A stretch of 64,000 nt of DNA from Leptolyngbya sp. Heron Island J (lineage in GTDB: Bacteria; Cyanobacteriota; Cyanobacteriia; Phormidesmidales; Phormidesmidaceae), in contig NZ_AWNH01000036.1 in NCBI RefSeq assembly GCF_000482245.1, positions 1-64,000 on the forward strand. Reading direction: 5' to 3'. Under the pieces are notes generated by a model, which saw only the letters and a program-made list of their open reading frames with translations, had not been told where the DNA came from and did not search any database. Shown piece after piece: positions 13,113 to 37,711 of the stretch. Position 1 is the stretch's first letter; every line of letters begins with the position of its first letter. The position numbers were made by a program, and so were the translations under genes.

Positions 13113-13198
13113 GGGTAATACGTAGAATTTTCAGCTAGACCCACTTAATATGCCTGCTTAGCGAAGAAAACTATCGCAACTGAGTAAAAGTACTTTTG

Positions 13199-13204: not shown

Positions 13205-13233
13205 TGGCAGCATGATAATAAACGTGAATAAGC

Positions 13234-13974: not shown

Positions 13975-14103
13975 ATAAAAAATATACTTGATTTAGTAAG
14001 ATTCTTTATTCTCATATTTACTATCTAAATGTCATTTGATTCTATTTCTATGATCAAAAATATTAGCTAATCAGTCAGTTTCATGTATAAGAAATAAATT
14101 TAT

Positions 14104-15294
14104 ATGAGTGATCTTCAGCCATTGTTTTCAGTTACTTTCCCAACAGGTGGATATAACCCTGAAATATCAATAAATGGTCAAACTCTAGATAAAGAGAAAG
14201 CTTCTTTTGATATTGAGTTTGAGCAAGGTAATCCTAACTATGCTCATATAGCCATAAATGATCGTAAAATTTACGGAGATATAGTTAATCATCCAATTTA
14301 TCGAATACTTCTGGGTATCAGAAGTTTGACTTTTAATTCTCCACCTGGTCTAAATTTTGAATTCGAAAGTTTTCGATTTTATCGTTTTAGTTTAATGCCA
14401 CATAAAGCAAGAGGAAAATTCAAACTGAAGTTTGAATTTCATCTTGACATGTTAGAGCACAATTCTATTTTTTTGTCCGCAAGAGAGTTCTTAAATAAAT
14501 TTACTATTCTTATTGGTGATAATGCGTTCATTTCAAAACATTTACAAAATATAGATTTAGATTCTGATGAAGATGCACTTAAAGAAGCAATATATACAGT
14601 GACTACAAAATGGAGGAATGACTCTGAAAAACCTCTGAGATACATTGTCGACAGTTATCTTGAAATCTTTAAAAGAGCATATAAGTTAATACTAGAAGAA
14701 CAGAAATCGTCCTTAAATCATGATTCTTTGACTGAGAAATTCAACTTTCCACCAGAAGTTAAAACGGCATGTGAGCAATACCTTTTGTATTTTTCAGAGT
14801 TCTTAAAAGATATTGGCATTGAAGTAACGGCTAGTATTACTGAAGAAGTTGAAAATGTAATTCTTGCAGTTGAACCTAAAAACAAGGAAGAAGCATTAGA
14901 AAATATAAGCCAACTTCTACAACTCTATTTGCAGCTACCCACTAGTTCTGTAGTTAATTCATATCAGCCAGCATCAGAACTCAGCTTTCCAGCACAAAAA
15001 CTACAAGCTCAAGTTCTACAACTGCAAAGCCAATTAGCCTTAGCGAATGCAGAAAAACAATATTTAAATGCAACTATTCAACAGCAGAGTAATTTAATTG
15101 CTCAACAGGCTCAAACTATACAAAGTCAGCAATTTACGGCTCAAGTATTAGTGGATTCACTTCAAAAGCAGGAAGACGATGAAGAAGAGTTGGTAGGAAA
15201 AATCATACGGATCAAGGATTATGAGGCGGGTCCAGTTTCTATTGGGCTTCCTGAATTACTGAGAAGGCTAAAAGCGTTGTTTGGCAGTAGTTAG
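14104..15294 (+). CDS. Unknown protein with C-terminal coiled coil
   Basis: 396 aa, no family recognised. Residues 1–110 are beta-rich and aromatic (FPTGGYNPEISINGQTL, then FEFESFRFYRFSLMPHKARG). Residues 110–250 are mostly helical with many charged residues. Residues about 295–350 form a Gln/Leu-rich coiled coil (QKLQAQVLQLQSQLALANAE, then IAQQAQTIQSQQFTAQVL), followed by an acidic patch EDDEEEL and a short C-terminal segment (GPVSIGLPELLRRLKALFG). There is no signal peptide. Like the interrupted gene 130 bp upstream it is strikingly AT-rich, with A/T third positions, which suggests recent horizontal transfer. It could be a structural or effector protein; no function is claimed. Confidence 0.75.
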   Translation: MSDLQPLFSVTFPTGGYNPEISINGQTLDKEKASFDIEFEQGNPNYAHIAINDRKIYGDIVNHPIYRILLGIRSLTFNSPPGLNFEFESFRFYRFSLMPHKARGKFKLKFEFHLDMLEHNSIFLSAREFLNKFTILIGDNAFISKHLQNIDLDSDEDALKEAIYTVTTKWRNDSEKPLRYIVDSYLEIFKRAYKLILEEQKSSLNHDSLTEKFNFPPEVKTACEQYLLYFSEFLKDIGIEVTASITEEVENVILAVEPKNKEEALENISQLLQLYLQLPTSSVVNSYQPASELSFPAQKLQAQVLQLQSQLALANAEKQYLNATIQQQSNLIAQQAQTIQSQQFTAQVLVDSLQKQEDDEEELVGKIIRIKDYEAGPVSIGLPELLRRLKALFGSS

Positions 15295-15684
15295 GTAGCC
15301 TCGTTAGGCATACATTCTTGCTTTGTTAGGTCAAATATAGTGATGCCTAGGTGACTGCATAAACAATTTCGGTTGAGCAAGTAGGTCTACAAGAGTCCTC
15401 CCTTACTAAGGGTAGGTGCCGTAGGCGGAGGGGTCTCGACTGTTTGCGCTAGTTATCCAGACCCCTCCCTGACGGTTCCCCTTGCCAAGGGGAACCAAAT
15501 ATCATCAAGCATCTCAAAACGGCAGATTATCTACAAGCAATCAGGGCTCTTCTGGAAGACTTTTCCTTTTTAGCCGCACTTTCAAAAATTCAACAAAAAC
15601 CTAATTGATAGCTGGAAGCTTTGCTTCCTTAAGGTTTTCAAAATCCCTTAAAACTGTTGAAAAACTCTTCGCAAACCTCGATCA
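15295..15684. other. Non-coding region (390 bp) with dispersed repeat
   Basis: No gene. It contains the repeat at 15395–15496 and, near the right end, a small hairpin GGAAGC-TTT-GCTTCC (15614–15628) that may help end the MscS transcript on the minus strand. Confidence 0.5.
15395..15496 (-). repeat. Dispersed palindromic repeat, copy 1
   Basis: About 100 bp. Its reverse complement matches the element at 37755–37853 in both arms: CCCCTTGG.AAGGG near one end, and CCCCTCCGCCT..GG.ACCT.CCCTT.GTAA.GGAGGAC at the other. Each arm can fold on itself. Non-coding; resembles the short mobile-type repeats scattered through cyanobacterial genomes. Confidence 0.7.
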
Positions 15685-23661: not shown

Positions 23662-24139
23662 AATCTTCTGTGGGTTACTAATCATACTCCTCTTGCTGTC
23701 AGAGAGAACAACAAGTTCCCTACTGGCAACGAGAGCGCAATTTAGCAACCTCAGTGAGGTAATTAACGCTGACCATAGCTAGTGCCTAGCTACCAACGGA
23801 TTTACCCTAGCGGTAGGAGATGTGGATTGTATGTTGGTGGATTTTGATCAGCAGCTCCGCAATAACTTAGAAACAACACTTTTGTAGACCAAATAAGATA
23901 AGACGTATCCGTCATTATCTCAATGGCATCACTCCTCACACTGTCTATAGATGTTCCCGTGGCAGACTCTGTCAATAGAGTCGAGAACTCTACTTTAAAC
24001 AACACTGATGTTGTTTAAAGCGATAGTGACTACTTTACCAACAAATTCTTTGCTAACGTCAGGCGTCTATCATAAAGTTTTATAACGGATCGGTATATAC
24101 AACTCTCCATAGGATGTCTGTATTTCCCTAATAGGCTTT
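23662..24139. other. Non-coding region (478 bp)
   Basis: No gene supported. Contains the perfect hairpin at 23993–24020. The right end borders an IS630 remnant, so part of this DNA may be decayed insertion sequence. Confidence 0.4.
23993..24020. repeat. 12-bp perfect hairpin
   Basis: CTTTAAACAACA (23993–24004), loop CTGA, TGTTGTTTAAAG (24009–24020). AT-rich stem with no T-run beyond it. Could be a terminator-like element or a relic of the nearby insertion sequence. Confidence 0.45.
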
Positions 24140-24352
24140 ATGCGCTTGAAAGCGATAAGTGGGCACAACGCGGTCTTTCTGTTTGAGTTGCCGATCGCTT
24201 CGCCAGAACTCAATCTGATTACGATCCTTTGGCGCTTTATGCAGTATGAGTGGATCGAGATCATGGCCTATGAGAGCTGGCACAGTCTGAAAAATCACGT
24301 CGAAGCCATGCTCATAGGGTTGGGAAAAGACTGTGTCATTAAGTTTGCATGA
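24140..24352 (+). pseudogene. IS630-family transposase, C-terminal remnant
   Basis: A 70-codon frame reads FELPIASPELNLITILWRFM, then QYEWIEIMAYESWHSLKNHV and VIKFA. This is the C-terminal end of IS630-type DDE transposases (consensus LPPYSPELNPIEILWRFxKYEWI), including the last acidic residue of the DDE triad in the SPELN.I..LW motif. The N-terminal two thirds and the terminal repeats are missing, so the element is dead. Confidence 0.75.
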
Positions 24353-24369
24353 CTACTTAGCAAGTCGGT

Positions 24370-25002
24370 TTAATCTGGCTGAGCTAAGGGAGACTTACCG
24401 CCCACAGCACTGGTTGGCAGCACCCACAGCAAAGCAAAGCCAGTGATGATGCCATAGACGGCCCACCCTTTACTTTCCACAATGCCAATGAGTGTACTCG
24501 GGAGGGTTTGGCAAACGCTATGACAGATGAGCGCACTAACAGCGCCGTGAAGAGCAGCCCCCAGGCAGCTTGCCAACAGCCAGACACCAATAGTACGCAG
24601 CCGGTAGCGAGCATGGTAGCTCAGAATCATTCCCTGGGCGATGGCCATACAGATAATGTACATCGGCTGATTAATGAAATTTAGCCAGAAGATCTCCCCA
24701 GTGCTTGTTGCTGCTGACGACAAAACTCCAGGTATTATTGGTGACACCAAAATTCCTATCATGGTGCTGATGATCCAGCCCAAGGCACTGGCGACTGGCC
24801 AGAGGGTCCAGCGTAGTCCTTTAGCATTTAACCATCTGAATATCAGCCATTGTGACGTCCCCAGAATGGCTCCCGACAACAACAGCGTTGCCATAAACTG
24901 AGCCCCGTTATTTTCTAGAAATCCCACTAAAAATCCACCAATGGCATTAGCCAAAATCCAGGCTAAAAATAATTTTGTTTTTTGTGTGTGCCAGACGATC
25001 AT
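24370..25002 (-). CDS. Polytopic membrane protein of unknown function
   Basis: 210 aa from ATG 25002, which has AAGGAG about 10 bp upstream; the longer frame to 25080 has no such site. About five to six hydrophobic helices: FLAWILANAIGGFLVGFL, MATLLLSGAILGTSQWLI, WPVASALGWIISTMIGILV, MYIICMAIAQGMIL, VWLLASCLGAALHGAVSALI, WAVYGIITGFALLWVLP. The Trp-Leu...Gly pattern ('GTSQWLIFR', 'LGWIIS') is common in cyanobacterial integral membrane proteins without known role. Monocistronic or co-transcribed after the hydrolase. Confidence 0.75.
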   Translation of the reverse strand: MIVWHTQKTKLFLAWILANAIGGFLVGFLENNGAQFMATLLLSGAILGTSQWLIFRWLNAKGLRWTLWPVASALGWIISTMIGILVSPIIPGVLSSAATSTGEIFWLNFINQPMYIICMAIAQGMILSYHARYRLRTIGVWLLASCLGAALHGAVSALICHSVCQTLPSTLIGIVESKGWAVYGIITGFALLWVLPTSAVGGKSPLAQPD

Positions 25003-25122
25003 GCTGAACTGTCTCCTTATGTAGTTTTTTGTCGTTTTTTTCAAGACGGTGAGCGACTGTGCGATCGCAACTAACTGCAATGGTGAGAACCGGCAGTTGG
25101 CCGGCGCATTCTAAGAGATCTC

Positions 25123-25926
25123 TTAAAAATCTTTTCGTGGGGCACCCAAAAACTGGAGCACCTGAGTATTAAAATCTGTCGGATTCACCAGATTAGATGG
25201 ATCTATCGACTTTTCTAAGGTTACGAATGTAGCATTGGGTAAGGCATCGGCAATCTTTTGATTGATCCGAATAAAGGACGCTCCCAGATCAGCCCCAACC
25301 ATTACCAGGGCTGGGACAGTGACGGTTTTTAGCTGTTCTAAAACATCCACACGGTTTATGGCTTTTCTAGCCAAAATTAGCTGATTGAGGTCAGCATGCA
25401 AACAAACTTGACAAAAATAGTCTCGGGCAGTCTGGGTATGGTCAGCGCCATAGGTAGCGTCCATCATCTTGACCAACCATTGTTTTCCCAATAGTTTGAA
25501 TAGATTAAATCCAATGACTTGAGAGAGCCCCAACAGCTTTTCTGTCAGGGTACGCAGTTCTCCAAACGAGTCGGCAACAATGAGATTAGCAACGCGCTGG
25601 GGATACTGAGTGACAAATGATTGAGCAATCACACCACCCATGCTAACGCCCATGACTGTGCATGTTTCTATGGCGAGGTGGGTTAACAGCCAGTTAATTT
25701 GATTGTGCCAGTTAGATAGCTGTGGGGTCTTTAATTTAGACGATTGCCCATGGCCAAACAGGTCAGGTACAAGTAGATGAAACCCCGCATCTACATAGGT
25801 TTGCATTTGAGGTTGCCACATGGCATGGTCTGCACCGATGCCATGTAACAACAGTAGAGTTTCAGACGAACGATCGCCTAGTTCTATACAATAGGTTTTA
25901 CTATTGTCTGGGTTCTGGAATATCAC
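25123..25926 (-). CDS. Alpha/beta-hydrolase fold protein lacking the catalytic His
   Basis: 267 aa. The oxyanion HG is at LLLLHGIGADHAMW (about 24–37), the nucleophile elbow GVSMGG places Ser95, and the acid region VPALVMVGADL places Asp213. At the position where the family has GHxxNLExP with the catalytic histidine, this protein reads SIDPSNLVNP, so His is replaced by Asp242. It may be inactive as a hydrolase, use another base, or act as a binding protein. It has no signal peptide. It is divergent from the membrane protein at 26113, and the intergenic region carries a CCATGACAAAAGTCAT palindrome (reverse orientation). Confidence 0.88.
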   Translation of the reverse strand: MIFQNPDNSKTYCIELGDRSSETLLLLHGIGADHAMWQPQMQTYVDAGFHLLVPDLFGHGQSSKLKTPQLSNWHNQINWLLTHLAIETCTVMGVSMGGVIAQSFVTQYPQRVANLIVADSFGELRTLTEKLLGLSQVIGFNLFKLLGKQWLVKMMDATYGADHTQTARDYFCQVCLHADLNQLILARKAINRVDVLEQLKTVTVPALVMVGADLGASFIRINQKIADALPNATFVTLEKSIDPSNLVNPTDFNTQVLQFLGAPRKDF

Positions 25927-26040
25927 AATTAATGCCTTACGTAGAACTTTGAACCATAGCTCTCTTGAAGAAAGGGGCTAGAAACGTTAAGTGTCTTCTA
26001 GAGTGAAAATTAGTTCCATATCAAAAAGTCATGGCGACTA

Positions 26041-26056
26041 ATGACTTTTGTCATGG
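26041..26056 (-). promoter_or_regulatory. Shared palindrome, copy 1 (CCATGACAAAAGTCAT)
   Basis: ATGAC-TTTT-GTCAT, identical over 16 bp (as reverse complement) to copies at 32871–32886 and 34353–34368. Sits between divergent genes, 57 bp before the DUF5673-like gene and 115 bp before the hydrolase. Candidate operator. Confidence 0.6.
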
Positions 26057-26112
26057 GAATCTGAGGCTGGGGCTTTTAAGGTGGAAGTACTTGCCGATTT
26101 TAAAAAACTCCT

Positions 26113-26832
26113 ATGGCTTGGTTTTTTGGATATATCATTTTTATCGGTCTAGTTTTGGGGGCTGGCTACCTGATAGTAGCCAGAACAATGGGGCAACCCG
26201 TTGCCAAACGCAATATAGGCTATGCGTTGCCCTGGATGTTAGTCGGGCTGGCAATCGCCTTGATCCCTACCCTAGTCACCCTGGGAGGACCAACTATCTG
26301 GAACTCTTTCTACTTAACCTATGTGATTCTCACTGGCCTTTGGTTAATCAGCTGGCCCTTACGCAAACGCAAGGCAGGTGGGCTACTGCTCAATGCTGGC
26401 CGGACCTGGCACAATAAATGTCTGTTCTGGATTGGACTGGTCGAGGTGGTAGTTGCCGCAATTATTACCTGGATTTCATGGGTCTCGCTGACAGATTTTC
26501 CCAATGCTTCAAATACGGTTGTACACACATCTCTTAAAATTGCCTTTTGGTGGATGTTGGCTATTTTAATTGTCTCACTTGGTCTAAACAGACTTGAACT
26601 TAGAGAAAATGGCCTGTGCTTTTTATACAATTTTATTCCCTGGCAGCGCATGAAATCCTACGCTTGGGAGACAAACTATCCCAATACCTTAACCATTCGC
26701 TTGCAGCCCCGTATGGTTTTCTTACCTGGGATTATGAGCATTAGAGTCCCCGAAGCTCAGCGCGATCGCATCGATCAAATTCTCAAGGACTGTATCTCGT
26801 TCTCCCCACCTGATTCGTTGGCCCTTTCTTAA
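26113..26832 (+). CDS. Membrane protein with DUF5673-like C-terminus
   Basis: 239 aa. Helices lie at about residues 2–24, 37–60, 67–84, 107–130 and 143–160, and are followed by a cytosolic domain of about 75 aa reading RLELRENGLCFLYNFIPWQR, then WETNYPNTLTIRLQ. This is the pattern of DUF5673 ('universal-stress-like' PH-type domain, function unknown). No ribosome site is obvious before the ATG. Its promoter region holds copy 1 of the shared palindrome. Confidence 0.8.
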   Translation: MAWFFGYIIFIGLVLGAGYLIVARTMGQPVAKRNIGYALPWMLVGLAIALIPTLVTLGGPTIWNSFYLTYVILTGLWLISWPLRKRKAGGLLLNAGRTWHNKCLFWIGLVEVVVAAIITWISWVSLTDFPNASNTVVHTSLKIAFWWMLAILIVSLGLNRLELRENGLCFLYNFIPWQRMKSYAWETNYPNTLTIRLQPRMVFLPGIMSIRVPEAQRDRIDQILKDCISFSPPDSLALS

Positions 26833-26918
26833 CCCCTGATAACCCCTTAAAAGGTCAATGAGTATCATAGAAATCAGTCTCTAGAGACTAGTGTACAGCA
26901 AGTATTTAAGAGCACTCC

Positions 26919-28187
26919 ATGGTACTTAGACGAGAAAGAATTTGGCTCAAAGGATGCCTAATTGTGCTTTTAATTAGCCTATCTTTTGGCCTGATACATC
27001 GGTTGACCACACCAGCCGTATCACAGCAGCTAGAGTTGTTTGAGGCTGTGTGGAAAACGGTCAATGACAACTTTTATGACTCTGAGTTTAATGGTGTAGA
27101 TTGGTCAGCGATGGGAGAACAGTATCGGTCTCGTGTGGCTACCGCTGAGTCTCCTACAGAAAAAGTAGCTCTGATTAATCAGATGCTAGGTTCGCTGGAA
27201 ACATCCCATACGCATTTGTATACCCCAGAGGAACCGGCCTACTATCAGCTATTAGGCATTTTTTATCCACGTATACCTGACTTTGAAACTCAGTTGGCAG
27301 AGCGGTTTCCAGAGGGCAGGCTGGAATATGCGGGCATCGGCATTGTTACCCGTGAAAAGGCTGGCACAACTTTTATCAAGGCCATTTTTGAGGGTAGTCC
27401 TGCTGACAAGGCTGGGTTACAGGTGGGTGACCAAATTCTCAGTGTGGCCGGTCAGCCGTTTCATCCGATTCAATCGTTTTTAGGTAAGGCGGGGCAACCC
27501 GTTAACCTGCAGGTGCAGTCTACGTTAAACGCTAGCAGCCAGAAACAGGTTCCGGTCACACCTGTACTGTATGACGGCATCACCATGTTCTTAGAGGTGA
27601 TGGACAACAGTATTGAGGTGATTGAAAAGGCTGGTAAACAAATTGGCTATGTTCATATTTGGTCCTATGCAGGGGATCAGTATCAGGAAAAACTAGAGGA
27701 TGAGCTGCTGTATGGTCGCCTTAGTGAGGCTGATGCGTTGGTGCTGGACCTGAGAGATGGGTGGGGCGGTGCCCCCTTGACGGCCCTGAATCTGTATACG
27801 GCCAGAGGCCCGAGCTTGACCAGTGTTGGTCGCGATCGCACCCGTGTCACTCACCACAGTCAGTGGAAAAAGCCGGTGGTCATGGTGGTCAATGACGGCA
27901 GCCGCAGTGCCAAAGAGGTTTTGGCCTATGGTTTTCAGCAATACGACATTGGCCCGGTTGTGGGCACAACCACCGCTGGTGCTGTGACTGCCGGGCGAGC
28001 ATTTATCATGCCCGACGACAGTTTGTTATATGTGGCAGTGGCGGATGTGTATGTGGATGAAACTGTGCGTTTGGAGGGTGTGGGAGTAACCCCTGATGAA
28101 GTGATACCGTTTCCGATTGAGTATGCTCAGGGCAGCGATCCTCAAAAAGAACGTGCGATCGCAACTGCCCTGACATTGGCTCAATAG
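26919..28187 (+). CDS. S41-family (C-terminal processing-like) peptidase
   Basis: 422 aa. An N-terminal signal/anchor helix (about 9–26, GCLIVLLISLSFGLIH) is followed by a helical region, a PDZ domain (about 135–200, YAGIGIVTREKAGTT and DKAGLQVGDQILSV) and the S41 catalytic domain with YVHIWSYAG, LVLDLRDGWGG and the Ser region VVNDGSRSAKEVLAYGF, in which Ser and Lys would form the catalytic dyad. It is exported and membrane-attached, and trims or degrades extracytoplasmic proteins. First gene of an apparent three-gene operon (gaps of 21 and 38 bp). Confidence 0.92.
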   Translation: MVLRRERIWLKGCLIVLLISLSFGLIHRLTTPAVSQQLELFEAVWKTVNDNFYDSEFNGVDWSAMGEQYRSRVATAESPTEKVALINQMLGSLETSHTHLYTPEEPAYYQLLGIFYPRIPDFETQLAERFPEGRLEYAGIGIVTREKAGTTFIKAIFEGSPADKAGLQVGDQILSVAGQPFHPIQSFLGKAGQPVNLQVQSTLNASSQKQVPVTPVLYDGITMFLEVMDNSIEVIEKAGKQIGYVHIWSYAGDQYQEKLEDELLYGRLSEADALVLDLRDGWGGAPLTALNLYTARGPSLTSVGRDRTRVTHHSQWKKPVVMVVNDGSRSAKEVLAYGFQQYDIGPVVGTTTAGAVTAGRAFIMPDDSLLYVAVADVYVDETVRLEGVGVTPDEVIPFPIEYAQGSDPQKERAIATALTLAQ

Positions 28188-28208
28188 CCATCAACAGATG
28201 TATGCACC

Positions 28209-29342
28209 ATGGGCACTCGATTAGTTTTCCTAGACAATCTGCGCGTCTTTTTAACCATGCTGGTGGTGGCCCACCATGCGGCCCAGCCCTATGGTCCCAC
28301 CGGCGGAGCATGGCCTATTTTCAATCCAGAACGTGCAGCTATTCTCGGAGCCTTTTTCGCAGTCAATGCCGCATTTTTTATGGGACTGTTCTTTTTTATT
28401 TCCGGCTACTTGTTGCCCGCCGCCTATGCCCGCAAGGGAGCCCAACAGTTCCTACGATCTCGGTTTCGACGGTTGGGAATACCCCTGCTGGGTTTAAGCA
28501 TAGTTGTTTTTCCTCTGGTACTGTATAGCGTGCACGGAGCATCCGAGTCTTTTGTTGAATTTATCCTGCAAACCTATATTCAACCACTCAGCCTCGAAGT
28601 CGCTCATCTGTGGTTTTTGGTGCATCTACTGGTTTATGCAGTTTGTTATACCCTATGGCAACAGATGAATCGAACAGATGAACTGACCAGGGCTACACCC
28701 GAGGATCAGGGCTCTGTACCAGGGCATCGAACCATTTTGATCTATTTACTGGTGCTGAGCACCGTGACATTTATTGTTCGGATTGTCTATCCGATTGATC
28801 GCTGGGTGCAATTATTTGGCCTGATTCCAGCAGAAATTGCCCACCTGCCCCAATATGTTAGCCTTTTTGTCTTGGGAATTGTCGCTTACCAATACAATTG
28901 GCTCAGACGGATGGGTACCCTACAGGGATTGACCTGGCTAGGAATTGGGCTAGCTGCCGCAGGTCTGCGCTATGGCTACAGCATTGGCCGGGCCAGATAT
29001 GGGCTAGCTGATGTCATTGAAGGCGGTGGCTGGGACTGGCGCTCGGCACTATGGAGTGGCTGGGAAGCAACAATTTGTGTGGGACTTTGTATCGGGTTAG
29101 TAACGTTGTTTCGCAAAAAAAACGATTTTCAAAGCAAAATCCTCCGAATACTGTCCGATAATGCCTATATGGTTTATCTAATTCATCTTTTGCCGATTCT
29201 CTACCTACAATTTATGATTGATAGTATCTCCATTAGTCCCCTGGCTAAGTTTGGTATAGTCACGTTGGTGGGTCTGCCGCTTTGCTTTGGCTGTAGTATG
29301 CTGCTAAGAAGAGTGCCGTTTGTTAAATGGGTTGTTTTATAA
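28209..29342 (+). CDS. Acyltransferase 3 family membrane protein
   Basis: 377 aa, ten or more membrane helices. It opens with RLVFLDNLRVFLTMLVVAHH, the acyltransferase-3/OpgC-type N-terminus (D-N-LR and the conserved His). It would O-acylate a glycan or other envelope molecule on the outer face of the membrane; the acceptor is not predictable. It starts 21 bp after the S41 peptidase stop, so it is co-transcribed. Confidence 0.9.
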   Translation: MGTRLVFLDNLRVFLTMLVVAHHAAQPYGPTGGAWPIFNPERAAILGAFFAVNAAFFMGLFFFISGYLLPAAYARKGAQQFLRSRFRRLGIPLLGLSIVVFPLVLYSVHGASESFVEFILQTYIQPLSLEVAHLWFLVHLLVYAVCYTLWQQMNRTDELTRATPEDQGSVPGHRTILIYLLVLSTVTFIVRIVYPIDRWVQLFGLIPAEIAHLPQYVSLFVLGIVAYQYNWLRRMGTLQGLTWLGIGLAAAGLRYGYSIGRARYGLADVIEGGGWDWRSALWSGWEATICVGLCIGLVTLFRKKNDFQSKILRILSDNAYMVYLIHLLPILYLQFMIDSISISPLAKFGIVTLVGLPLCFGCSMLLRRVPFVKWVVL

Positions 29343-29380
29343 ACAAGCAATCTCAAGTTATTTTAGGAAGAATTTGTACT

Positions 29381-29626
29381 ATGACACCGCAAGAAGAACA
29401 ACGCCGTACCCTGTCTGAGTTGGGCTACCAATTTTTATTGGGTACCGCCCTTGGCCTCATATTTGCCCTGATTCCATTAGCCATCACGACACCGGCATTA
29501 ACGCTGTGGAATACGGTGGCCACTATTGTCATTGTTTTATTGTTTGGGTTGCTGTCTGTAACCTTTGGGAAAAAGTTTCTAAGCGCTCTGATGCAGTTTC
29601 TAGAATCGCTCCCTCCTGTGGCCTAG
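29381..29626 (+). CDS. Small two-helix membrane protein
   Basis: 81 aa from ATG 29381 with AGGAAG 10 bp upstream; the frame extends back to 29327 inside the previous gene, but that start has no site. Two membrane helices: FLLGTALGLIFALIPLAI and NTVATIVIVLLFGLLSV. The ends are polar (TPQEEQRRTLSELG). Unknown role, third gene of the S41–acyltransferase operon. Confidence 0.7.
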   Translation: MTPQEEQRRTLSELGYQFLLGTALGLIFALIPLAITTPALTLWNTVATIVIVLLFGLLSVTFGKKFLSALMQFLESLPPVA

Positions 29627-29668
29627 TAATATTGTCGTCATTGCTGAGCAGCGTGAGCAGCCTCCTGG

Positions 29669-30346
29669 CTAGCAGAGCCGTCCATCTTCAATGTGTAGCG
29701 TTCGCTCAGCAATATCAAGAATACGAACATCGTGGGTGACTAGTAAAACCGTGCAGTGTTGCTGGTGAGCCAGTTGCTGGATCAAGTTGACTACATCGCG
29801 TCCAGAATGGCTATCTAGAGATGCTGTGGGTTCATCCGCCAAAACAATTTTGGGCTGAGATACCAGCGCCCGCGCGATCGCAACCCGTTGTTTTTGACCA
29901 CCGGATAGCTGATCGGGATATTTGTGACCATGGTCATCCAGGCCAACCAATTGCAAAATTTGGTCAGTACGTCTGTGCCGTTCTGCCACGGATAGCCCAC
30001 TATGTAGTTTGAGGGCCATGCCAACATTCTCGGCAGCCGTCAGACAATCCAGTAGATTATGGGACTGAAAGATAAACCCAATCTGATTCCGCAGACGCAC
30101 CAGCTTCCGTTTGCGGACACCCCGCAGTTCCTGATCAAAAATTTTTAGACTGCCGGTTTGTACCGAGCGCAACGCCCCCATTAAGGTCAGCAAGGTGGTT
30201 TTACCACTGCCCGATGGTCCGGTTAGGAGAACAATTTCTCCTGGGTAGAGTTCCAGGTTAATATCTTGGAGTACCGAACGACGGAGGGTACTCTTACCAA
30301 AGCTGTGGTTGAGATTATTGATCCGAACGGTAGGAGAGATGGCCAT
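29669..30346 (-). CDS. devA: DevA-type ABC exporter ATPase
   Basis: 225 aa from ATG 30346, 4 bp after the devC stop; a frame-compatible ATG at 30361 would overlap devC. Walker A GPSGSGKTT, Q-loop FIFQSHNLLD, signature LSGGQKQRVAIARAL, Walker B IVLADEPTASLD, switch LLVTHD, all intact. MacB/LolD-like ATPase powering the DevC permease. In heterocystous cyanobacteria DevBCA exports envelope glycolipids; related sets in other cyanobacteria export peptides or unknown substrates. Last gene of devB–devC–devA. Confidence 0.93.
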   Translation of the reverse strand: MAISPTVRINNLNHSFGKSTLRRSVLQDINLELYPGEIVLLTGPSGSGKTTLLTLMGALRSVQTGSLKIFDQELRGVRKRKLVRLRNQIGFIFQSHNLLDCLTAAENVGMALKLHSGLSVAERHRRTDQILQLVGLDDHGHKYPDQLSGGQKQRVAIARALVSQPKIVLADEPTASLDSHSGRDVVNLIQQLAHQQHCTVLLVTHDVRILDIAERTLHIEDGRLC

Positions 30347-30350
30347 AGTT

Positions 30351-31565
30351 CTAAAAGACATCAGCGGGGTCAGCAGATTGAAGACGACGCATTGCGATCG
30401 CGCCCGACACATTGCACATCACCAGGGTGAGCATAAACACCTGGAGTGCTACTGTACTTTGCATAATCAGCGGAATGCGAGTCAGCGTTGTCAATATCTG
30501 ATAGAGCCCCAGGGAAGTAAAAAAACCAGGGATAAACCCTAAAACCGCTAACAATAGGGCTTCTAATAACACCACCCGCAACAAAGAGCCATCACTGTAG
30601 CCCATGGCCTTGAGGGTGGCATATTCTGGCAGATGATCGCTGATATCGGTATACAGTACCTGATAGACAATAACAATCCCGACAACAAATCCGACTATGC
30701 TGCCAAAGCCAAAAATAATCCCGATGGGGTCGTTTTGGGTAAATTGATGCTCTTTCTCAATCAGTTCATCCAGGGTCAACACAGCCACTTTATCAGAGGG
30801 GAGATGTGCCTGTAGCTGAGTTTTGACCGTTTCGATATCGCTGCCGGATTCTACGGTTAAGACCCCCAGAGTGATATGATTCAGGGCCGTTTCACCAAAC
30901 CACTGAATATAATTTAAATCACTCATGACCACAGTCCCTTTTTCAATCACGGTACTGCCCAGGTTAAATAATCCCACAACATAGACCCGTCGCCCTGCCA
31001 TCAGCGTCTGCACACTGTCTTCAGACTCTAACAGGGCTGGAATATCTCCCAACGAGGGCTGGGAGAGACGATCAAAGAAAACCGAATTGGCTGCACTGAG
31101 GTGTTCGCGCTCCTGATTCACCTCGGGAATATTCAGCACGGGCTGGGATGGATTAAAGGCAATCACCCGCACCTGATTACCAAAAACATCGCCACTGTCC
31201 TGATCCGCTGGCGTTTCGCCAAGCTGACTGGGGTCTGTCCAACTGGCCATATTGAGGTATAGCGGTGCCGCCGAGGCCACCCCATTGACGGCATTAGCCT
31301 GCAGCAGATAAGCCCGTGGTAGGGCAATTGGAATTCTCAGACTCGGGCTAAACGGCGATATCAAAAAGAGATCACCCTTCAGGTTTTCATGTAGGGTAGT
31401 TGTCCCATCGGCGATCAGACTCTGCAGCCCCATCATGGTAAACATGAGAATATTGGCAAAGCTAACTCCAGTGATGGCGACGGCAAGACGTACTTTTTGA
31501 TGAGATAGCTGCGCCCAGGCCAGGGGTTTTTCGAGCGGCAGAAGCGATCGAATTAGTTTATACAT
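30351..31565 (-). CDS. devC: DevC-type ABC exporter permease (FtsX/MacB-like)
   Basis: 404 aa from ATG 31565 (MYKLIRSLLPLEKPLAWAQL); the frame extends to 31598 inside devB. One membrane helix near residue 20–42 (LAVAITGVSFANILMFTMMG), a large periplasmic domain of about 230 aa, then three helices near the C-terminus (IGIIFGFGSIVGFVVGIVIVY; LLRVVLLEALLLAVLGFIPG; VFMLTLVMCNVSGAIAMRRL), the FtsX topology. It starts 19 bp after devB and is followed directly by devA. Confidence 0.93.
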   Translation of the reverse strand: MYKLIRSLLPLEKPLAWAQLSHQKVRLAVAITGVSFANILMFTMMGLQSLIADGTTTLHENLKGDLFLISPFSPSLRIPIALPRAYLLQANAVNGVASAAPLYLNMASWTDPSQLGETPADQDSGDVFGNQVRVIAFNPSQPVLNIPEVNQEREHLSAANSVFFDRLSQPSLGDIPALLESEDSVQTLMAGRRVYVVGLFNLGSTVIEKGTVVMSDLNYIQWFGETALNHITLGVLTVESGSDIETVKTQLQAHLPSDKVAVLTLDELIEKEHQFTQNDPIGIIFGFGSIVGFVVGIVIVYQVLYTDISDHLPEYATLKAMGYSDGSLLRVVLLEALLLAVLGFIPGFFTSLGLYQILTTLTRIPLIMQSTVALQVFMLTLVMCNVSGAIAMRRLQSADPADVF

Positions 31566-31584
31566 AGGGAAAAAGCAAACAACG

Positions 31585-32760
31585 TTATGATGCCTCAAGC
31601 TGAATGGCTACCCGTACCTGCATCCCGGTCAATGCGGCCACTTGTTCACTAGCCTGAGCGTCCAGCCGGACTTTAACAGTGACTACACGAGCGTTAACAT
31701 CCTGGGTTGGATTAGCCGCCTGCGCTTCACCAAAGTTGGCCTTGCCAATTTGTAAACCAATCTGTTCCACAGTGCCTGTTAGTTCTGTTGCTACACCGCC
31801 ATATTCGCTAGTAATCTTGACAGGCTGGCCCGATTTCACTTTGCGAATATCTGTTTCGTAGACTTCAGCAACTACCATCATCTGGTCAGTTTGGGCCAGT
31901 TCTACAATGCCCTGCTGAGTATTCACCTGTTCGCCAATCTGGGTATTGATTTTGAGAATTTGTCCGGCTACGGGGGAACGCACAAGCACATCGTCAAGGT
32001 CAGCCTGGCGCTGGGCTACTTGGATTTGGGCCTGTTCTAGCTGGGCGGTTGCGATCGCAATATCCTCTGGCTTTACCTGGGTCAGTTCCACCAATCTCGA
32101 TCTCGCTTCTGCAATTTGAGCCCTGAGGGTACGCTCGGTCTCTTCTTTTTCCGCCATCGCCACTGCCAAATCCGCCTGGGCCGTTTCATAATCTCGCTGA
32201 GCAATATCCAGTTCTGAACGACTGGTAGCACCCACAGAGGTCAGCTGCTGATAGCGTTGATAATGGGTCTGAGATTCTTGGAATGTGGCTTGAGCTCTAT
32301 TGATCGATGCTGCACGCTGCAGGGTTTGAGCCGCTAGCTGGGCCTCTAGCCGAGCGATAGTTGCCTGTTGAGTCTCAATTTCCGCCGGTTTAACATCACC
32401 AGTTTTTTGTTGGCTCAGCTCCGCCTGCCGCTGCCGCACCAGGGCATGGGCCGCCTGTAAATCCGCCTGTCGTCGTTCAGCCCCCTGCAATACCGCAATC
32501 ACCTGTTGGGCCTCGACCCAATCTCCCTCATTTACCCGAATCTCATTCACTCGACTATCTGCTGCATTAGACACCGATAGTCGAATCACTTCTCCCTTGG
32601 GCTCAATGCGCCCCAGAGCCACTACCGACTCAATTTCAACTTCAACGGGGGTAATGTCATCTTCGTTTGGTTGTGAATTAAAGGGCACATTACAGCCAGT
32701 GGAGAGCAGGGCCGTTAGCAGCAGGAACACACCCCAGCGAAATGATAGTTTGTGCAACAT
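31585..32760 (-). CDS. devB: DevB-type membrane fusion protein (HlyD family)
   Basis: 391 aa. A lipoprotein-like signal peptide (residues 1–23, LLTALLSTGC, lipobox Cys23) leads to a biotinyl-lipoyl half-motif (SVSNAADSRVNEIRVNEGDW, then VEAQQVIAVLQ), a long coiled coil at about 85–235 with many Gln/Ala/Glu, the second lipoyl half (VRSPVAGQILKIN) and a beta barrel. It bridges the DevC/DevA pump to an outer-membrane TolC partner not found here. First gene of devBCA. Its upstream region, shared divergently with the SnoaL-like gene, carries copy 2 of the palindrome. Confidence 0.92.
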   Translation of the reverse strand: MLHKLSFRWGVFLLLTALLSTGCNVPFNSQPNEDDITPVEVEIESVVALGRIEPKGEVIRLSVSNAADSRVNEIRVNEGDWVEAQQVIAVLQGAERRQADLQAAHALVRQRQAELSQQKTGDVKPAEIETQQATIARLEAQLAAQTLQRAASINRAQATFQESQTHYQRYQQLTSVGATSRSELDIAQRDYETAQADLAVAMAEKEETERTLRAQIAEARSRLVELTQVKPEDIAIATAQLEQAQIQVAQRQADLDDVLVRSPVAGQILKINTQIGEQVNTQQGIVELAQTDQMMVVAEVYETDIRKVKSGQPVKITSEYGGVATELTGTVEQIGLQIGKANFGEAQAANPTQDVNARVVTVKVRLDAQASEQVAALTGMQVRVAIQLEAS

Positions 32761-32870
32761 AGATACACTTGCAGAGTTTAGCGGATGAAGAGCGTTGTTA
32801 AAGCAATATAGGTGTTATATCGTGTCAAGCCAAGCGTATTTCTGTTTTAGCCAATGATGTTGAACAACGA

Positions 32871-32886
32871 CCATGACAAAAGTCAT
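32871..32886 (+). promoter_or_regulatory. Shared palindrome, copy 2 (CCATGACAAAAGTCAT)
   Basis: Here the symmetry extends to CATGAC-AAAA-GTCATG. It lies between divergent devB (111 bp from its start) and the SnoaL-like gene (92 bp from its start). Candidate operator. Confidence 0.6.
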
Positions 32887-32977
32887 GCAATTGTATGACT
32901 CCTGGCTGTGGGAAGAGTTAAGTCGGTTCGTTACGCTGTGAGTTCAATTAAACAAAACCGATCAGGAGACGGAAACA

Positions 32978-33397
32978 ATGGCGAAAGATCATGCAAATAT
33001 TGAATTGTTAAAACAGCTAGAAACCTACTTAGACAAAAATGATTTTGCCAATGCGTCAGTACTTTTCTCCAAAGGATTCGTTTGGCATTTTTTTAATTCT
33101 CAACTACCCAATATCCAGGGTGACTATGTCGGTGCAGACGGATTGCAAACATTCTTTGAAAAACTGGCCGTCGTCACTGGAGGGACGTTTCACGTTGAGA
33201 CAGTTGCTGTTATCCCGATTGGCAATGAGCTGGTTGTTACCCACGTACAAGACAGTATGACGCTAAAAGGGCAGCCCATTAAACTAGACGCTGTTGTTGT
33301 CTGGCGCATTGTAGATGGCTGTATTGCTGAAGCCTGGGACATTCCAGCCATACATACACTGCATACACCTCAGCCACCCATGGCGACCGCAGCGTAG
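32978..33397 (+). CDS. SnoaL/NTF2-like protein
   Basis: 139 aa, single NTF2-like alpha+beta cone: a helical start (IELLKQLETYLDKNDFANAS), then the strands GTFHVETVAVIPIGNELVVT and DAVVVWRIVDGCIAEAWDIP, a common ending of the SnoaL-like family. The pocket may bind a small hydrophobic ligand or be catalytic; no function can be assigned. A good AGGAG site lies 9 bp before the ATG. Divergent from devB, sharing copy 2 of the palindrome. Confidence 0.85.
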   Translation: MAKDHANIELLKQLETYLDKNDFANASVLFSKGFVWHFFNSQLPNIQGDYVGADGLQTFFEKLAVVTGGTFHVETVAVIPIGNELVVTHVQDSMTLKGQPIKLDAVVVWRIVDGCIAEAWDIPAIHTLHTPQPPMATAA

Positions 33398-33419
33398 ATC
33401 TTGGCAAGAAGCATCAATC

Positions 33420-33451
33420 ATTGCAGGGCGCACATCGTTGCGCTCTGCAAT
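33420..33451. terminator. Bidirectional terminator hairpin
   Basis: ATTGCAGGGCGCA (33420–33432) pairs with TGCGCTCTGCAAT (33439–33451), one G·U, loop of 6. Lies between the convergent SnoaL-like and beta-lactamase genes. Confidence 0.6.
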
Positions 33452-33455
33452 AGGC

Positions 33456-34295
33456 CTATAAAAGCCCAAGCATCTCAAAGCAATGCCGGGTGACTTCTGC
33501 CCTCAGGCTGGGATCTACCCCATCAAGCATATTGATATTGGTGGCAAAGAAATATACGTTGTTGTTTTGCTCCACATAGCCGACATACCAGCCGAGCTCC
33601 TCCGCCAGTGCCCAGCCTGTTTTGGCACGAATGGTATAGTCTGGCGTTTGTTCAACAATCATAATGTCTTTGACCATGGCCACTGTTCTTTCTGAGAATG
33701 GCAGGTCATTGTTGTACAGACGACGCAAAAACTGAATCTGTTGTTGAGGTGTGATCCGGATATCGCCCGTGAGCCAAAACGTGTCAATCTCGTCTACACT
33801 GCCGATGGTTTGATTGCCATAGTTAGCGTTAGCCACCCACTGTTGCATGCGCTCATGGCCAACACGACGGGCAAGCACCTGATAAAACCAGACGGCTGAT
33901 ATCTGAAACGCGGTTCTTAGATTCAGGTCACGGTTCCATGTGGGAAAACTTCTTTCTACGCCATCCCAGGTGAGAATTGCCAGATCGTTAGCGATAATGC
34001 CAGTCTCTAATGAAATCAGAGAATTGAGGATTTTGAAGGTGGAGGCTGGCAGGAAGGGGGTGGTATTGCGATCGCGATTGTGCTCATAGGTCACATCCTG
34101 ATTTTGGTCATAAATGATAATTGACCCTTCTACTCCCAGGTCTTGGAAATGTTGCGCGAAGTTAGGTTGTGCAACTTCTTGCTGGGCTTGGGCAATGGCC
34201 GTTGCCGGTGGAGAAGGTGTGGCAGCAAATGAGGGGAGCGCTACCAAACAGCTACCTAGAGTTAAACAGCCGAGCCAATGAGAAATATGCTTCAT
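33456..34295 (-). CDS. Class D (OXA-type) beta-lactamase
   Basis: 279 aa from ATG 34295 (the frame is open to 34361 but homology and the signal peptide begin here). Signal peptide at residues 1–25 (cut after SFA or FAA). Class D motifs in order: STFK at 85–88 (Ser nucleophile and carboxylated Lys), SAV at 133–135, YGN at 159–161, FWLTGDIRIT around 173–182, and KTGW at 225–228. All catalytic residues are present, so it should hydrolyse beta-lactams or act on peptidoglycan-like substrates in the periplasm. Convergent with the SnoaL-like gene; copy 3 of the palindrome lies about 60 bp upstream of the start. Confidence 0.92.
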   Translation of the reverse strand: MKHISHWLGCLTLGSCLVALPSFAATPSPPATAIAQAQQEVAQPNFAQHFQDLGVEGSIIIYDQNQDVTYEHNRDRNTTPFLPASTFKILNSLISLETGIIANDLAILTWDGVERSFPTWNRDLNLRTAFQISAVWFYQVLARRVGHERMQQWVANANYGNQTIGSVDEIDTFWLTGDIRITPQQQIQFLRRLYNNDLPFSERTVAMVKDIMIVEQTPDYTIRAKTGWALAEELGWYVGYVEQNNNVYFFATNINMLDGVDPSLRAEVTRHCFEMLGLL

Positions 34296-34352
34296 AAATG
34301 TGTCTAGCCTTAAAAGGGGCTGTTGCATGCTAGACCATTTACCGTTACAACT

Positions 34353-34368
34353 CCATGACAAAAGTCAT
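34353..34368 (+). promoter_or_regulatory. Shared palindrome, copy 3 (CCATGACAAAAGTCAT)
   Basis: Same 16 bp as copies 1 and 2, 58–73 bp upstream of the class D beta-lactamase start (minus strand). Candidate operator or activator site for that gene. Confidence 0.6.
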
Positions 34369-34486
34369 CAATTAATTCAGCTGTATGCGATGCCGTTTTA
34401 GATAATGGCTACTGTCAAAGAGGACGTGCCATTAACTTTGAAGTATGCGATCGCACTCAAATCCTTAGACCCAAGTATTTCACCAC

Positions 34487-35788
34487 CTATCCAAACAGAA
34501 TTGGCTTATTTTCTTTCCGTGCCTGATCCCCTGAATAGGGATAATCCAGCACCATATCCCCCTCTGGACTACGTAGCCGGATGGTGCCAGCCTTATTGCG
34601 TAATACACCTTGGCTTGTCGGGACAATAAACTTAAACACATCCCCCGGTGCCACCGCAATATCCGCCAGCTCAAAGCGGGTGCCATTAGGTGCTACGACT
34701 TGCCAACCCAGTAACGAAGCCGTCTGTTGAGACGCATTAATAATCTGGATAAATTCTCTGCCACCTTCTGGATTCTGGGGATTGACCATAGCGGCAACAA
34801 TCCTGAAACGACTAGACTCTGTGTTGCCAGGTGTTTGATCTTTATCCTGGTCCTCGTCTTTGTCTTTGTCTTTGTCATCGTCAATATCAATCACATCGGC
34901 TCGGCGAAACCGTGGGAAAAAGGTGCGGATGGCATTACGGTTGTTGTCCAGACGGTGTAAGTCAAGCTGATACTCAGCACCATTGATCCGGGTGATTTTA
35001 TTACTCTGGGTACGACACCTGACCAAGCCTAGGGCAATTAGCCCCTCAGGACTACAGCCAACAAAAAAGCCGCCAATGGGCTTATGCAAACGCTTAGTAT
35101 TGTGACTGCCATCACCTAGGGGAGCATGCCACGTTAATTCTAAGGTAACAACCTCAGGAACCAGCACTCCCTTTTCAGGTTCCTTTGCTTTTTCATATCG
35201 AGTACCCAAATACTGGATTCTATCTTGACCATCATGGCCAGGTATAACACTCTGGCCAGCATCATCTAGATGGTACTTATACCAAAAATGATAACCGCCA
35301 GCTTTACTCGCTTTACTGGATTGTTCTCCCACAAAAACATGCTCAAAGCCTGATGCATCTTGTTGACCACCAGCGGTGCCCATGTCAAACCAGGTCTCTT
35401 TGATCATGGCCGCCATCAGGCTTTGAGAAATGGTTAAATCCAGAGAAGCTTCTAAAAACTGTTGCGCCTTTTTAATCGGTGGAGTCGGTAGAATCGCATC
35501 AATAAAGTCCAGCTCTTCCTGGGTTTCCTCTGGGCTAACCTGTTCGCGTACGGCGCGCTCCAGGGCATAGTTATCAAAAATTCGCTCACATAGCTGATAG
35601 GTTTCCAACTTGTCGGCAGGGATAACCACTTCCTTTAGCACCTGGTGCTCAGAATCAACCTCAGTGGCGCGTTCATCCACAACAACATACCCCTGAGTCT
35701 CGTTCCTGGCTTCATCAGGTCTGAGGGCAGGCACCCCATTGCCACCCTGGTCCGCATCCCAGATTTCTTGAAAAATATTGTCTGACAT
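34487..35788 (-). CDS. EndoU-like endoribonuclease fused to a lamin-tail-like domain
   Basis: 433 aa. Residues about 60–265 match the EndoU (XendoU) fold: ASGFEHVFVGE (His150), AGGYHFWYKYHLDD (His167) and KPIGGFFVGCSPEGLIALG (Lys236), the same order and near-identical His-His spacing as the EndoU catalytic triad. These enzymes cut RNA after uridine using Mn2+. An Asp/Lys-rich linker (300–320) leads to an Ig-like C-terminal domain (328–433: VNPQNPEGGREFIQIINA, then LLGWQVVAPNG and PGDVFKFIVP) resembling bacterial lamin-tail domains. No signal peptide. AGGAA lies 6 bp before the ATG. No immunity or secretion gene is evident beside it. Confidence 0.82.
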   Translation of the reverse strand: MSDNIFQEIWDADQGGNGVPALRPDEARNETQGYVVVDERATEVDSEHQVLKEVVIPADKLETYQLCERIFDNYALERAVREQVSPEETQEELDFIDAILPTPPIKKAQQFLEASLDLTISQSLMAAMIKETWFDMGTAGGQQDASGFEHVFVGEQSSKASKAGGYHFWYKYHLDDAGQSVIPGHDGQDRIQYLGTRYEKAKEPEKGVLVPEVVTLELTWHAPLGDGSHNTKRLHKPIGGFFVGCSPEGLIALGLVRCRTQSNKITRINGAEYQLDLHRLDNNRNAIRTFFPRFRRADVIDIDDDKDKDKDEDQDKDQTPGNTESSRFRIVAAMVNPQNPEGGREFIQIINASQQTASLLGWQVVAPNGTRFELADIAVAPGDVFKFIVPTSQGVLRNKAGTIRLRSPEGDMVLDYPYSGDQARKENKPILFG

Positions 35789-36037
35789 GGTTATTCCTGC
35801 CTCATCTAGCAGGTACTGTTATGAAGTGATTAATAATTTTCAGTATGGAACTGACCATAAAGCTTTGTCATGCCCCTGATGGGTACTTTTTGCCACCCAT
35901 ACCAAATTTTCTGAAAAATCGTCATTAGAAGGAGATCTGGATTGGCCGGTCCTAAAAAGGCTCGCTACTATTGAGCCAAAGCAATTAAACCGCTAGGGTG
36001 TATAGGGCATGCCGGCACACGATAAAGCAAACCTAGA

Positions 36038-37711
36038 ATGCGATACCTGATCACCAGCGCACTTCCCTACATCAATGGAATTAAGCACTTGGGCAACCTG
36101 GTGGGATCGATGCTGCCCGCCGATGTGTACGCCCGATTTCTACGCCAAGAAGGCGAAGACGTCCTCTATATATGTGCCACTGACGAACACGGCACCCCAG
36201 CCGAAATTGCTGCCTTAGAAGCAGAGCTAGATGTAGCCGAATTTTGTACTCGTCAGTACCAGAAACAAAAAGACATCTACGAACGCTTCGGCCTATCCTT
36301 TGACTACTTTGGCCGCACCTCCGCCCCCGAAAACCACGAACTAACCCAGCACTTCTATCGCCAGCTAGCCGAACACGGCTTTATCGAAGAACGAGAAATC
36401 AGCCAGATCTATTCACTAGACGACGAACGCTTTCTACCCGATCGCTACGTTACCGGTACCTGCCCCCACTGCGGCTATGACAAAGCCCGAGGCGATCAGT
36501 GCGAAAACTGCACCAAGGTGCTGACACCTACCGAACTGATTGACCCCCGCTCTACCATTTCCGGCAGCACTAACCTGGAAGTCCGCAGTTCCAAGCATCT
36601 ATTTTTGCTGCTCGACAAACTCAGTGACGAAGTCCGCACCTGGGTCGAAAAACAAGAACAGTGGCCCACCCTGACCAAATCTATCGCCCTCAAGTGGCTC
36701 AACGAAGGATTGCAAAGTCGGGGCATCACCCGTGATTTAAGCTGGGGAGTACCCGTACCCGTCGACGGCTTCGACGGCAAAGTTTTTTATGTGTGGTTTG
36801 ATGCCCCCATCGGCTATGTGTCCGCCACCAAAGCCTGGGGCAACGCCACCGGCAACGACTGGGAGAGCTGGTGGAAAGGAGACGACATCCACTACACCCA
36901 GTTTATGGCCAAAGATAACCTGCCCTTCCACACCATCATGTGGCCTGCGACGATCCTGGGCAGTCGTGAACCCTGGAAGCTAGCGGACTACATCAAAGGT
37001 TTTAACTGGCTTAACTACTACGGCGGCAAGTTCTCCACCAGCTCCAAGCGTGGCGTCTTCCTTGATCAGGCCCTGGAGATTGCTCCCGCCGACTACTGGC
37101 GCTATATGCTGATGGCCAGCGCCCCTGAGTCGTCTGATTCTGCCTTTACCTGGGAGCAGTTTCAAAATCGGGTCAATAAAGAACTGGCGGATAATCTGGG
37201 CAACTTTGTCAACCGCATTCTCAAGTTCACTGCTTCTCGGTTTAGTAAAGAACTGCCTGAAGGCGGCACCCCTGGCGAAGCGGAAGCTGAGCTGCAAAAG
37301 ACCTGTCGTGAGCTAGTGGAAAAACTGCGGGGTCACCTGCGCAAGCAAGAATTCCGCCGCGCTACGGAAACCCTTAATGCCCTATGGACAGCGGGTAACC
37401 AGTATATTGACGTGCGTGCCCCTTGGGCTCTGTTTAAGACGGACAAAGAAGAAGCCGCTTTGGTGATTCGTACCTGTATTAATTTGATTCGGCTGTATGC
37501 GATCGCAAGCGCCCCCTTTATTCCCCACACCGCTGAAGCCCTTTACGACGCCCTCCAACTTACCGAGGACGAGCGCAACAGCTCCATGGCCGCTGCCACA
37601 GACTTGGCTATCCTGGCTGCCGGTCGCCCGTTTGAAGTCCCTGCGCCCTTATTCCAAAAGCTTGACGATGATCGAGTGACCGAGCTTAAGGCCCAGTTTG
37701 GAGGTGAATAA
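36038..37711 (+). CDS. metG: Methionyl-tRNA synthetase (KFSTS variant)
   Basis: 557 aa class I synthetase that charges tRNA-Met. HIGH-type motif HLGN (17–20) after SALPYINGIK. A zinc knuckle CPHCGYDKARGDQCENC near 145. Near residue 331 KFSTSSKRGVF stands in place of the usual KMSKS, a variant typical of archaeal-type and some secondary bacterial MetRS. The anticodon-binding helical domain is present (WTAGNQYIDVRAPWALFK), but there is no C-terminal tRNA-binding extension. It may be a second, horizontally acquired MetRS or the only one; the window cannot tell. Monocistronic. Confidence 0.93.
   Translation: MRYLITSALPYINGIKHLGNLVGSMLPADVYARFLRQEGEDVLYICATDEHGTPAEIAALEAELDVAEFCTRQYQKQKDIYERFGLSFDYFGRTSAPENHELTQHFYRQLAEHGFIEEREISQIYSLDDERFLPDRYVTGTCPHCGYDKARGDQCENCTKVLTPTELIDPRSTISGSTNLEVRSSKHLFLLLDKLSDEVRTWVEKQEQWPTLTKSIALKWLNEGLQSRGITRDLSWGVPVPVDGFDGKVFYVWFDAPIGYVSATKAWGNATGNDWESWWKGDDIHYTQFMAKDNLPFHTIMWPATILGSREPWKLADYIKGFNWLNYYGGKFSTSSKRGVFLDQALEIAPADYWRYMLMASAPESSDSAFTWEQFQNRVNKELADNLGNFVNRILKFTASRFSKELPEGGTPGEAEAELQKTCRELVEKLRGHLRKQEFRRATETLNALWTAGNQYIDVRAPWALFKTDKEEAALVIRTCINLIRLYAIASAPFIPHTAEALYDALQLTEDERNSSMAAATDLAILAAGRPFEVPAPLFQKLDDDRVTELKAQFGGE

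Follow-up and report, generated by a model that had tools for sequence, protein, structure and literature searches.

Palindromic operators in Leptolyngbya sp. Heron Island J and their probable control by a DesR-like two-component system

A stretch of 64,000 nucleotides from Leptolyngbya sp. Heron Island J (contig NZ_AWNH01000036.1, positions 1 to 64,000; hereafter the window) carries three copies of a palindromic 16-mer, named here W1, W2 and W3. We conclude that these copies are part of a real and conserved operator set that belongs to a two-component regulon. They probably serve as operators in a DesR-like regulon under a kinase-regulator system encoded on a different contig (C12), and the regulon would cover a DUF5673-S41 peptidase-acyltransferase operon (W1), devBCA exporter genes together with a SnoaL-like gene (W2) and a class D beta-lactamase gene (W3); regulator binding, activation and the signal are deduced from sequence. 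For a cyanobacterial class D beta-lactamase and a DevBCA exporter, this reading names a candidate regulator, specifies its operator precisely and lists the targets, so that what induces such genes becomes a directly testable question. It would also extend to cyanobacteria a DesR-type operator described for Firmicutes.

A rare palindrome within a composite operator

Sequence search confirmed the three identical copies of the 16-mer CCATGACAAAAGTCAT reported in the first-pass annotation, at positions 26041-26056 on the minus strand (W1) and at 32871-32886 (W2) and 34353-34368 (W3) on the plus strand. It is the only 16-mer present at least three times in the window, where no match beyond these three copies was found at up to three mismatches; three matches at this tolerance were reached in 2 of 100 dinucleotide-shuffled windows. 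In the whole genome (8,063,028 bases in 119 contigs, the window making up positions 1 to 64,000 of contig C36) the exact 16-mer again occurs three times, all within 8.3 kb of the window, and the random genome-wide scatter that had been named as evidence against a regulon was not seen. One mismatch adds three places (C12:166563, C105:22044 and C115:325376), and the reversed 16-mer, our control, has no match in the genome at up to one mismatch.

The looser core ATGAC-N4-GTCAT is another matter. At up to one mismatch it was seen four times in the window versus a mean of 2.06 expected, which is not beyond chance, and the bare core, with 21 copies in the whole genome versus 10 for its control, is not rare by itself. 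By our own open reading frame (ORF) calls, 11 of these 21 copies fall within ORFs of at least 250 codons, a chance-like share, and 10 are intergenic; a TANNNT hexamer 22-24 nucleotides (nt) from the core on at least one side accompanies 7/10 intergenic versus 1/11 intragenic copies, the background rate being about 4% per side. The lack of excess in the window and the intragenic copies are what could be said for chance, or for a mobile or repeated DNA element, as the origin of the three sites. Against such an origin, the sequences flanking W1, W2 and W3 differ from one another, the sites are kept at orthologous positions in other species of the genus, and the reversed controls give no matches or hardly any. 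Together with the whole-genome counts, the controls and the differing flanks rule this explanation out for practical purposes, and we give it hardly any weight.

Two of the three window copies are part of a larger operator, GTCAT-N8-ATGAC-N4-GTCAT. Its third half-site, GTCAT at 26028-26032 for W1 and ATGAC at 32895-32899 for W2, is additional to the palindrome first described. When the inner spacer is written as NTTT, the composite GTCAT-N8-ATGAC-NTTT-GTCAT is matched perfectly at exactly three places in the whole genome, namely W1, W2 and the promoter of a histidine kinase gene on contig C12, and the next-best match carries two mismatches. W3 was joined to the operator set because its 16-mer is identical and its promoter geometry fits.

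A DesR-like kinase-regulator pair as the candidate regulator

On contig C12, the palindrome at C12:166565 stands 64 nt before a HisKA_3 kinase gene, which is followed by a gene (L024:6638-7276, -) for a regulator with a receiver and a LuxR-type helix-turn-helix (HTH) domain; an S9 peptidase gene is divergent. This operon is not linked to the window. The kinase contains HisKA_3 (PF07730) and HATPase (PF02518) domains, with four hydrophobic segments before the H-box at 225 according to a simple hydropathy scan, which is not a topology prediction, and the regulator contains the receiver (PF00072) and LuxR-type HTH (PF00196) domains. The operon is predicted to encode a DesK-like membrane kinase and a DesR-like response regulator of the NarL/LuxR family.

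The DesR-like assignment was made because the operator fits the DesR and RR11 motifs and because the best relatives of the kinase among solved structures are DesK. The DesR operator has been given as ATGACA-N2-TGTCAT and the motif of pneumococcal RR11 as ATGACATTTGTCAT-N7-AGTGACA (PMC11034029). In the kinase direction the C12 site reads ATGACATTTGTCAT, identical to the palindrome of the pneumococcal TCS11 system, and its third half-site begins at an equal distance. W1 to W3 read ATGACAAAAGTCAT, in which the inner A/T of the published DesR palindrome differs on one side. As in DesK/DesR of Bacillus subtilis, a HisKA_3 kinase is paired with a NarL-family regulator and an operator of the ATGACA-N2-TGTCAT type. 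DesK/DesR and its homologues YvfT/YvfU are known to control the des desaturase or a single neighbouring ABC transporter; the YvfT/YvfU genes adjoin ABC transporter genes (PMC7726353). For TCS11, a single specific target operon was found, which encodes TCS11 itself as well as four hypothetical proteins together with two ABC transporters (PMC11034029). Unlike DesK/DesR, the system proposed here has several unlinked targets (beta-lactamase, peptidases, DevBCA), and its promoters are laid out divergently on the two sides of the operator. No desaturase or ABC transporter genes are present beside the C12 system; DevBCA genes are found near the C20 system described below and at loci L135 and L120, and at L135 they adjoin a NarL-type two-component system, with the palindrome before devB.

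LiaR, VraR and CesR share with the cyanobacterial system regulator sequence similarity and the theme of envelope stress. A LiaR/VraR-type box was considered and rejected, since the CesR box, TCAGHCTnnAGDCTGA (PMC4447274), is by eye a different palindrome from ATGAC-N4-GTCAT. Excerpts returned by our literature search held no cyanobacterial account of the composite operator and no NarL-type two-component control of DevBCA. The regulon had first been called undescribed; the type of operator is not new and matches the DesR class known from Firmicutes.

Two observations count against the C12 system as a DesR-type regulator of the window sites. Among solved proteins, the C12 regulator is closest to VraR (5e-46), followed by NarL (4e-36), with DesR further away (2e-31), so that the cyanobacterial system is DesR-like by operator and kinase and falls outside strict DesR membership by regulator sequence. 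In addition, two other kinases, on contigs C20 and C99, carry the palindrome with other spacers, and paralogous systems could share a site. It is conceivable, if rather unlikely, that the window sites, though of this DesR-like class, are bound by one or several paralogues: the regulator of C20, C59 or C44 (66%, 52% and 51% identical to that of C12, in a genome with seven HisKA_3 matches), or a partner that the C99 kinase has lost or that is encoded elsewhere. The spacers differ, however. The palindromes before the C20 kinase-regulator operon (C20:19033) and before the devBCA operon of the same contig (C20:22352) have a CCAG/CTGG spacer, possibly a separate specificity, and the one before the DesK-like C99 kinase (C99:1948) has TAAA, whereas the full NTTT composite is common only to the C12 promoter, W1 and W2. 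Among 13 kinase promoters with an exact palindrome and a regulator at least 75% identical to that of C12, the spacer read toward the kinase is NTTT in nine and TTTA or TAAA in four; the C20-like loci L109, L113 and L114 have ACCA, CAGA and ACCT.

Both paralogous loci have features of their own. On C20:9000-26000 (L058), the kinase-regulator operon, a fasciclin/RTX-repeat protein gene and the devBCA operon stand together. The C99 kinase (L022:1-1948) has a divergent gene for an LTXXQ (Spy-like) protein; a transposase-like ORF or fragment lies where a regulator gene might be expected, none being found beside the kinase, and it looks like an orphaned kinase.

Conservation of the operator

In order to follow the site into other genomes, genome contigs were scanned for the C12 regulator, and the best 80 of 263 confirmed loci were used. 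Of these, 56 were classed as cyanobacterial; 43 have a kinase-sized ORF just upstream, and the 13 without one were left out. Here a kinase is any ORF of at least 250 codons ending near the regulator gene, and at some counted loci tblastn gave no kinase of the three query types. The palindrome lies within -400 to +60 of the start of this ORF in 26/43 cyanobacterial loci as an exact copy and in 33/43 at up to one mismatch, compared to none and one, respectively, for the reversed control. Elsewhere in these loci there are six exact palindromes in 582,352 bases, and in the non-cyanobacterial loci with a kinase-sized ORF the palindrome was found in 0/22. Along with the palindromes before the C12 and C20 kinase-regulator operons and the C99 kinase, the 26 exact cases support the earlier proposal of a small regulon under a dimeric NarL/LuxR-type regulator encoded outside the window. 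Counted as cyanobacterial are two loci (L078 and L100) on a contig titled as a Candidatus Gracilibacteria metagenome-assembled genome; this contig bears two cyanobacterial-type systems, one of them with the palindrome before its kinase, and either mis-binning or transfer would account for them.

At up to one mismatch the 16-mer was found at 36 places in 16/59 genomes (control, three places), and the exact composite operator with any spacer at 34 sites in 17/115 relatives (control, none). Within the genus, a W1-type site precedes the DUF5673 homologue in all five genomes that have one, in one case with a single mismatch, and a W2-type site precedes SnoaL in 4/4 orthologues. Apart from these genus orthologues, one SnoaL homologue in G035 has the site. 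A W3-type site precedes the beta-lactamase gene at three of the four same-genus loci with upstream sequence (G000, G004 and G005); a further locus, in G007, is a fragment that lacks the upstream region and stands outside this count. Two of these genomes, G004 and G005, retain the entire block of hydrolase, DUF5673, S41 peptidase, acyltransferase, small membrane protein, SnoaL and beta-lactamase genes with all three sites present; the 18-kb stretches covered in these two genomes yielded no devBCA genes.

Several results weigh against the regulon as proposed. Phylum-wide, the exact composite gave 11 sites, three of them in the genome studied here, in 9/386 genomes, with two in the control; a version of our reading that made the full operator widespread across the phylum was dropped on these counts. 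By the counts in relatives and across the phylum, the system is concentrated near this lineage. Outside the genus, the site was found before 0/6 DUF5673 homologues and 0/17 beta-lactamase homologues; of all 17 SnoaL homologues 12 lack it, as does the beta-lactamase gene of same-genus G002. The lack of conservation before orthologues that the first-pass annotation would have held against a regulon was not seen within the genus, where the site is conserved. In the window itself, W3 has the palindrome and no third half-site, no -10-like hexamer stands at the expected offset between W1 and the alpha/beta hydrolase gene, and the predicted -10 box of devB, TAAAAC, departs from TANNNT in its final base.

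Promoter geometry and operator-linked genes

The position of the operator relative to predicted -10 boxes was analyzed in two sets, whose members are not phylogenetically independent, several loci per genome being possible (as in Hyella). The first consists of 27 non-redundant kinase promoters cleaned from 38 aligned rows; we relied on the cleaned set because one row (L174, near a contig end) was out of register and three were duplicates. The third half-site GTCAT lies 8 nt upstream of the palindrome in 16/27 and 8 or 9 nt upstream in 20/27, and TANNNT lies 22-24 nt past the palindrome in 22/27. The second set consists of 56 non-redundant composite operators from all loci collected, including loci retrieved by searching for the operator itself. 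On the palindrome side, TANNNT occurs 11, 9 and 2 times at 22, 23 and 24 nt (at most 3 at other offsets; background mean 1.05), and on the side of the third half-site 23 and 17 times at 32 and 33 nt (at most 4 at other offsets; background mean 0.87). In total, 22 operators have the hexamer on the palindrome side (22-24 nt), 41 on the third-half-site side (31-33 nt), 47 on either and 16 on both. Both peaks persist after a harder redundancy cut to 38 operators, with 13 and 24 cases, respectively.

The 56 composite operators are enriched for a GCTATGG-like stretch past the third half-site. If this stretch is the weaker arm of another dimer site, each dimer would stand about 22 nt from its own -10. 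With about 22-24 nt between its end and the -10, the palindrome would have its centre near -42, the usual place for an activator beside RNA polymerase, and the spacing points to activator geometry, often on both sides of the operator. A regulator that represses the named genes, or binds without regulating them, is a less likely alternative still than binding by a paralogue: operators that overlap promoters can repress, and the sites are close to the predicted -35 region, but a centre near -42 is what an activator would be expected to show, and pneumococcal TCS11, which is DesKR-like, is positively autoregulated (PMC11034029).

For the C12 system we propose that the phosphorylated regulator would bind GTCAT-N8-ATGAC-N4-GTCAT as dimers, with the palindrome as the strong dimer site and the third half-site plus the degenerate GCTATGG arm as the weaker one. 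Once bound, it would act as an activator at -10 boxes that stand about 22-24 nt past the palindrome and about 32 nt past the third half-site, including that of its own operon. In the window, W1 would serve the DUF5673-S41-acyltransferase operon, W2 the divergent devBCA and SnoaL genes and W3, by its palindrome, the class D beta-lactamase gene. The S9 peptidase that is divergent from the C12 kinase is likely to be a target too, as are a YscW-domain protein on C105 and a 234-residue protein on C115. The signal would be envelope, membrane or antibiotic stress; the beta-lactam or envelope-stress signal is likewise putative. More tentatively, and with somewhat less than even confidence, we suggest for cyanobacteria a DesR-class regulon with a two-faced operator, in which back-to-back dimer sites, each about 22 nt from its own -10, let one element activate two divergent promoters, typically those of the kinase-regulator operon and of a secreted or envelope hydrolase; in the genus of the window this arrangement would have been extended to the class D beta-lactamase, DevBCA and the peptidase operon as an inducible defence against competitors' cell-envelope antibiotics or peptides. 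The proposed two-sided activator layout can be checked by transcription-start maps.

At W1, the core palindrome ATGACTTTTGTCAT occupies 26041-26054 and the exact composite C36:26028-26054. CCATATC at 26016-26022, or GATATGG when read from the opposite strand, would be the degenerate outer arm of the operator's second half; the operator set has its GCTATGG-like consensus past the third half-site. A predicted -10, TAAGGT, at 26077-26082 (+), lies 22 nt past the palindrome, as in the operator set. It precedes the gene for a DUF5673-like membrane protein (26113-26832, +; PF18923 at 24.9 bits, below the 26.7 cut-off), probably in an operon with genes for an S41 (CtpA-like) peptidase (26919-28187, +; PF03572), an acyltransferase family 3 protein (28209-29342, +; PF01757) and a small protein with two membrane helices predicted by hydropathy and no Pfam match (29327-29626, +). 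Divergent from W1 is an alpha/beta hydrolase gene (25123-25926, -; PF00561), whose control by W1 is uncertain because of the missing -10. The claim that the sites always precede genes of envelope export or drug handling was too strong in view of the W1 operon.

At W2, the core palindrome lies at 32873-32886 and the exact composite at C36:32873-32899. The TAAAAC box predicted for devB (32844-32849, -) is 23 nt past the palindrome and was not counted as a match, and that predicted for the SnoaL gene, TACGCT (32932-32937, +), is 32 nt past the third half-site, in agreement with the operator set. The devB-devC-devA-like operon (29669-32760, -) passes the family cut-offs for cyanobacterial DevBCA exporters (TIGR02971, TIGR01185 and TIGR02982), and the SnoaL-like protein (32978-33397, +) matches PF12680. 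At W3, the core palindrome lies at 34355-34368 and a predicted -10, TAGCAT (34327-34332, -), 22 nt past it, again at an operator-set offset. The class D beta-lactamase ORF (NF012161, 287 bits versus a cut-off of 250) overlaps the W3 copy at 34353 when started from TTG (33456-34361). More likely, it starts from the ATG at 34295 (33456-34295, -), ahead of a signal-peptide-like stretch, so that W3 is promoter DNA and, as had been proposed, all three copies lie in promoter regions. The protein encoded near W3 by 34487-35788 (-) contains an XendoU endoribonuclease domain (PF09412) and weakly matches a lamin-tail domain. No structured RNA matched Rfam at the gathering score in window positions 24000-36500. 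Further away, G+C content drops to 0.43-0.38 across 12001-16000, where ORFs 13540-13974 and 14104-15294 are without a Pfam match.

Genes adjoining the 56 operators were assigned by a mechanical rule and searched with Pfam. First genes on the third-half-site side (50 scanned) include S9 peptidases (8), beta-lactamases of PF00144 (7), a different family from the class D enzyme of the window, SnoaL_2 (4), Rce1-like (3) and HlyD (2) proteins, with single cases of S41, the 6-aminopenicillanic acid acyl-transferase family, GDSL lipase and unrelated families. The 39 genes scanned on the palindrome side include 17 with HisKA_3 and three with HlyD. S9 peptidases and beta-lactamase-family hydrolases thus form the largest linked groups, and the presence of serine hydrolases and exporters suggests that operator-linked genes serve envelope, peptide or antibiotic defence. 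In four related genomes (L231-L234), composite operators with CGATC-rich N8 spacers lie just 3' of the regulator gene and precede a small secreted-protein-like gene, followed in L233 by a serine-hydrolase-like ORF.

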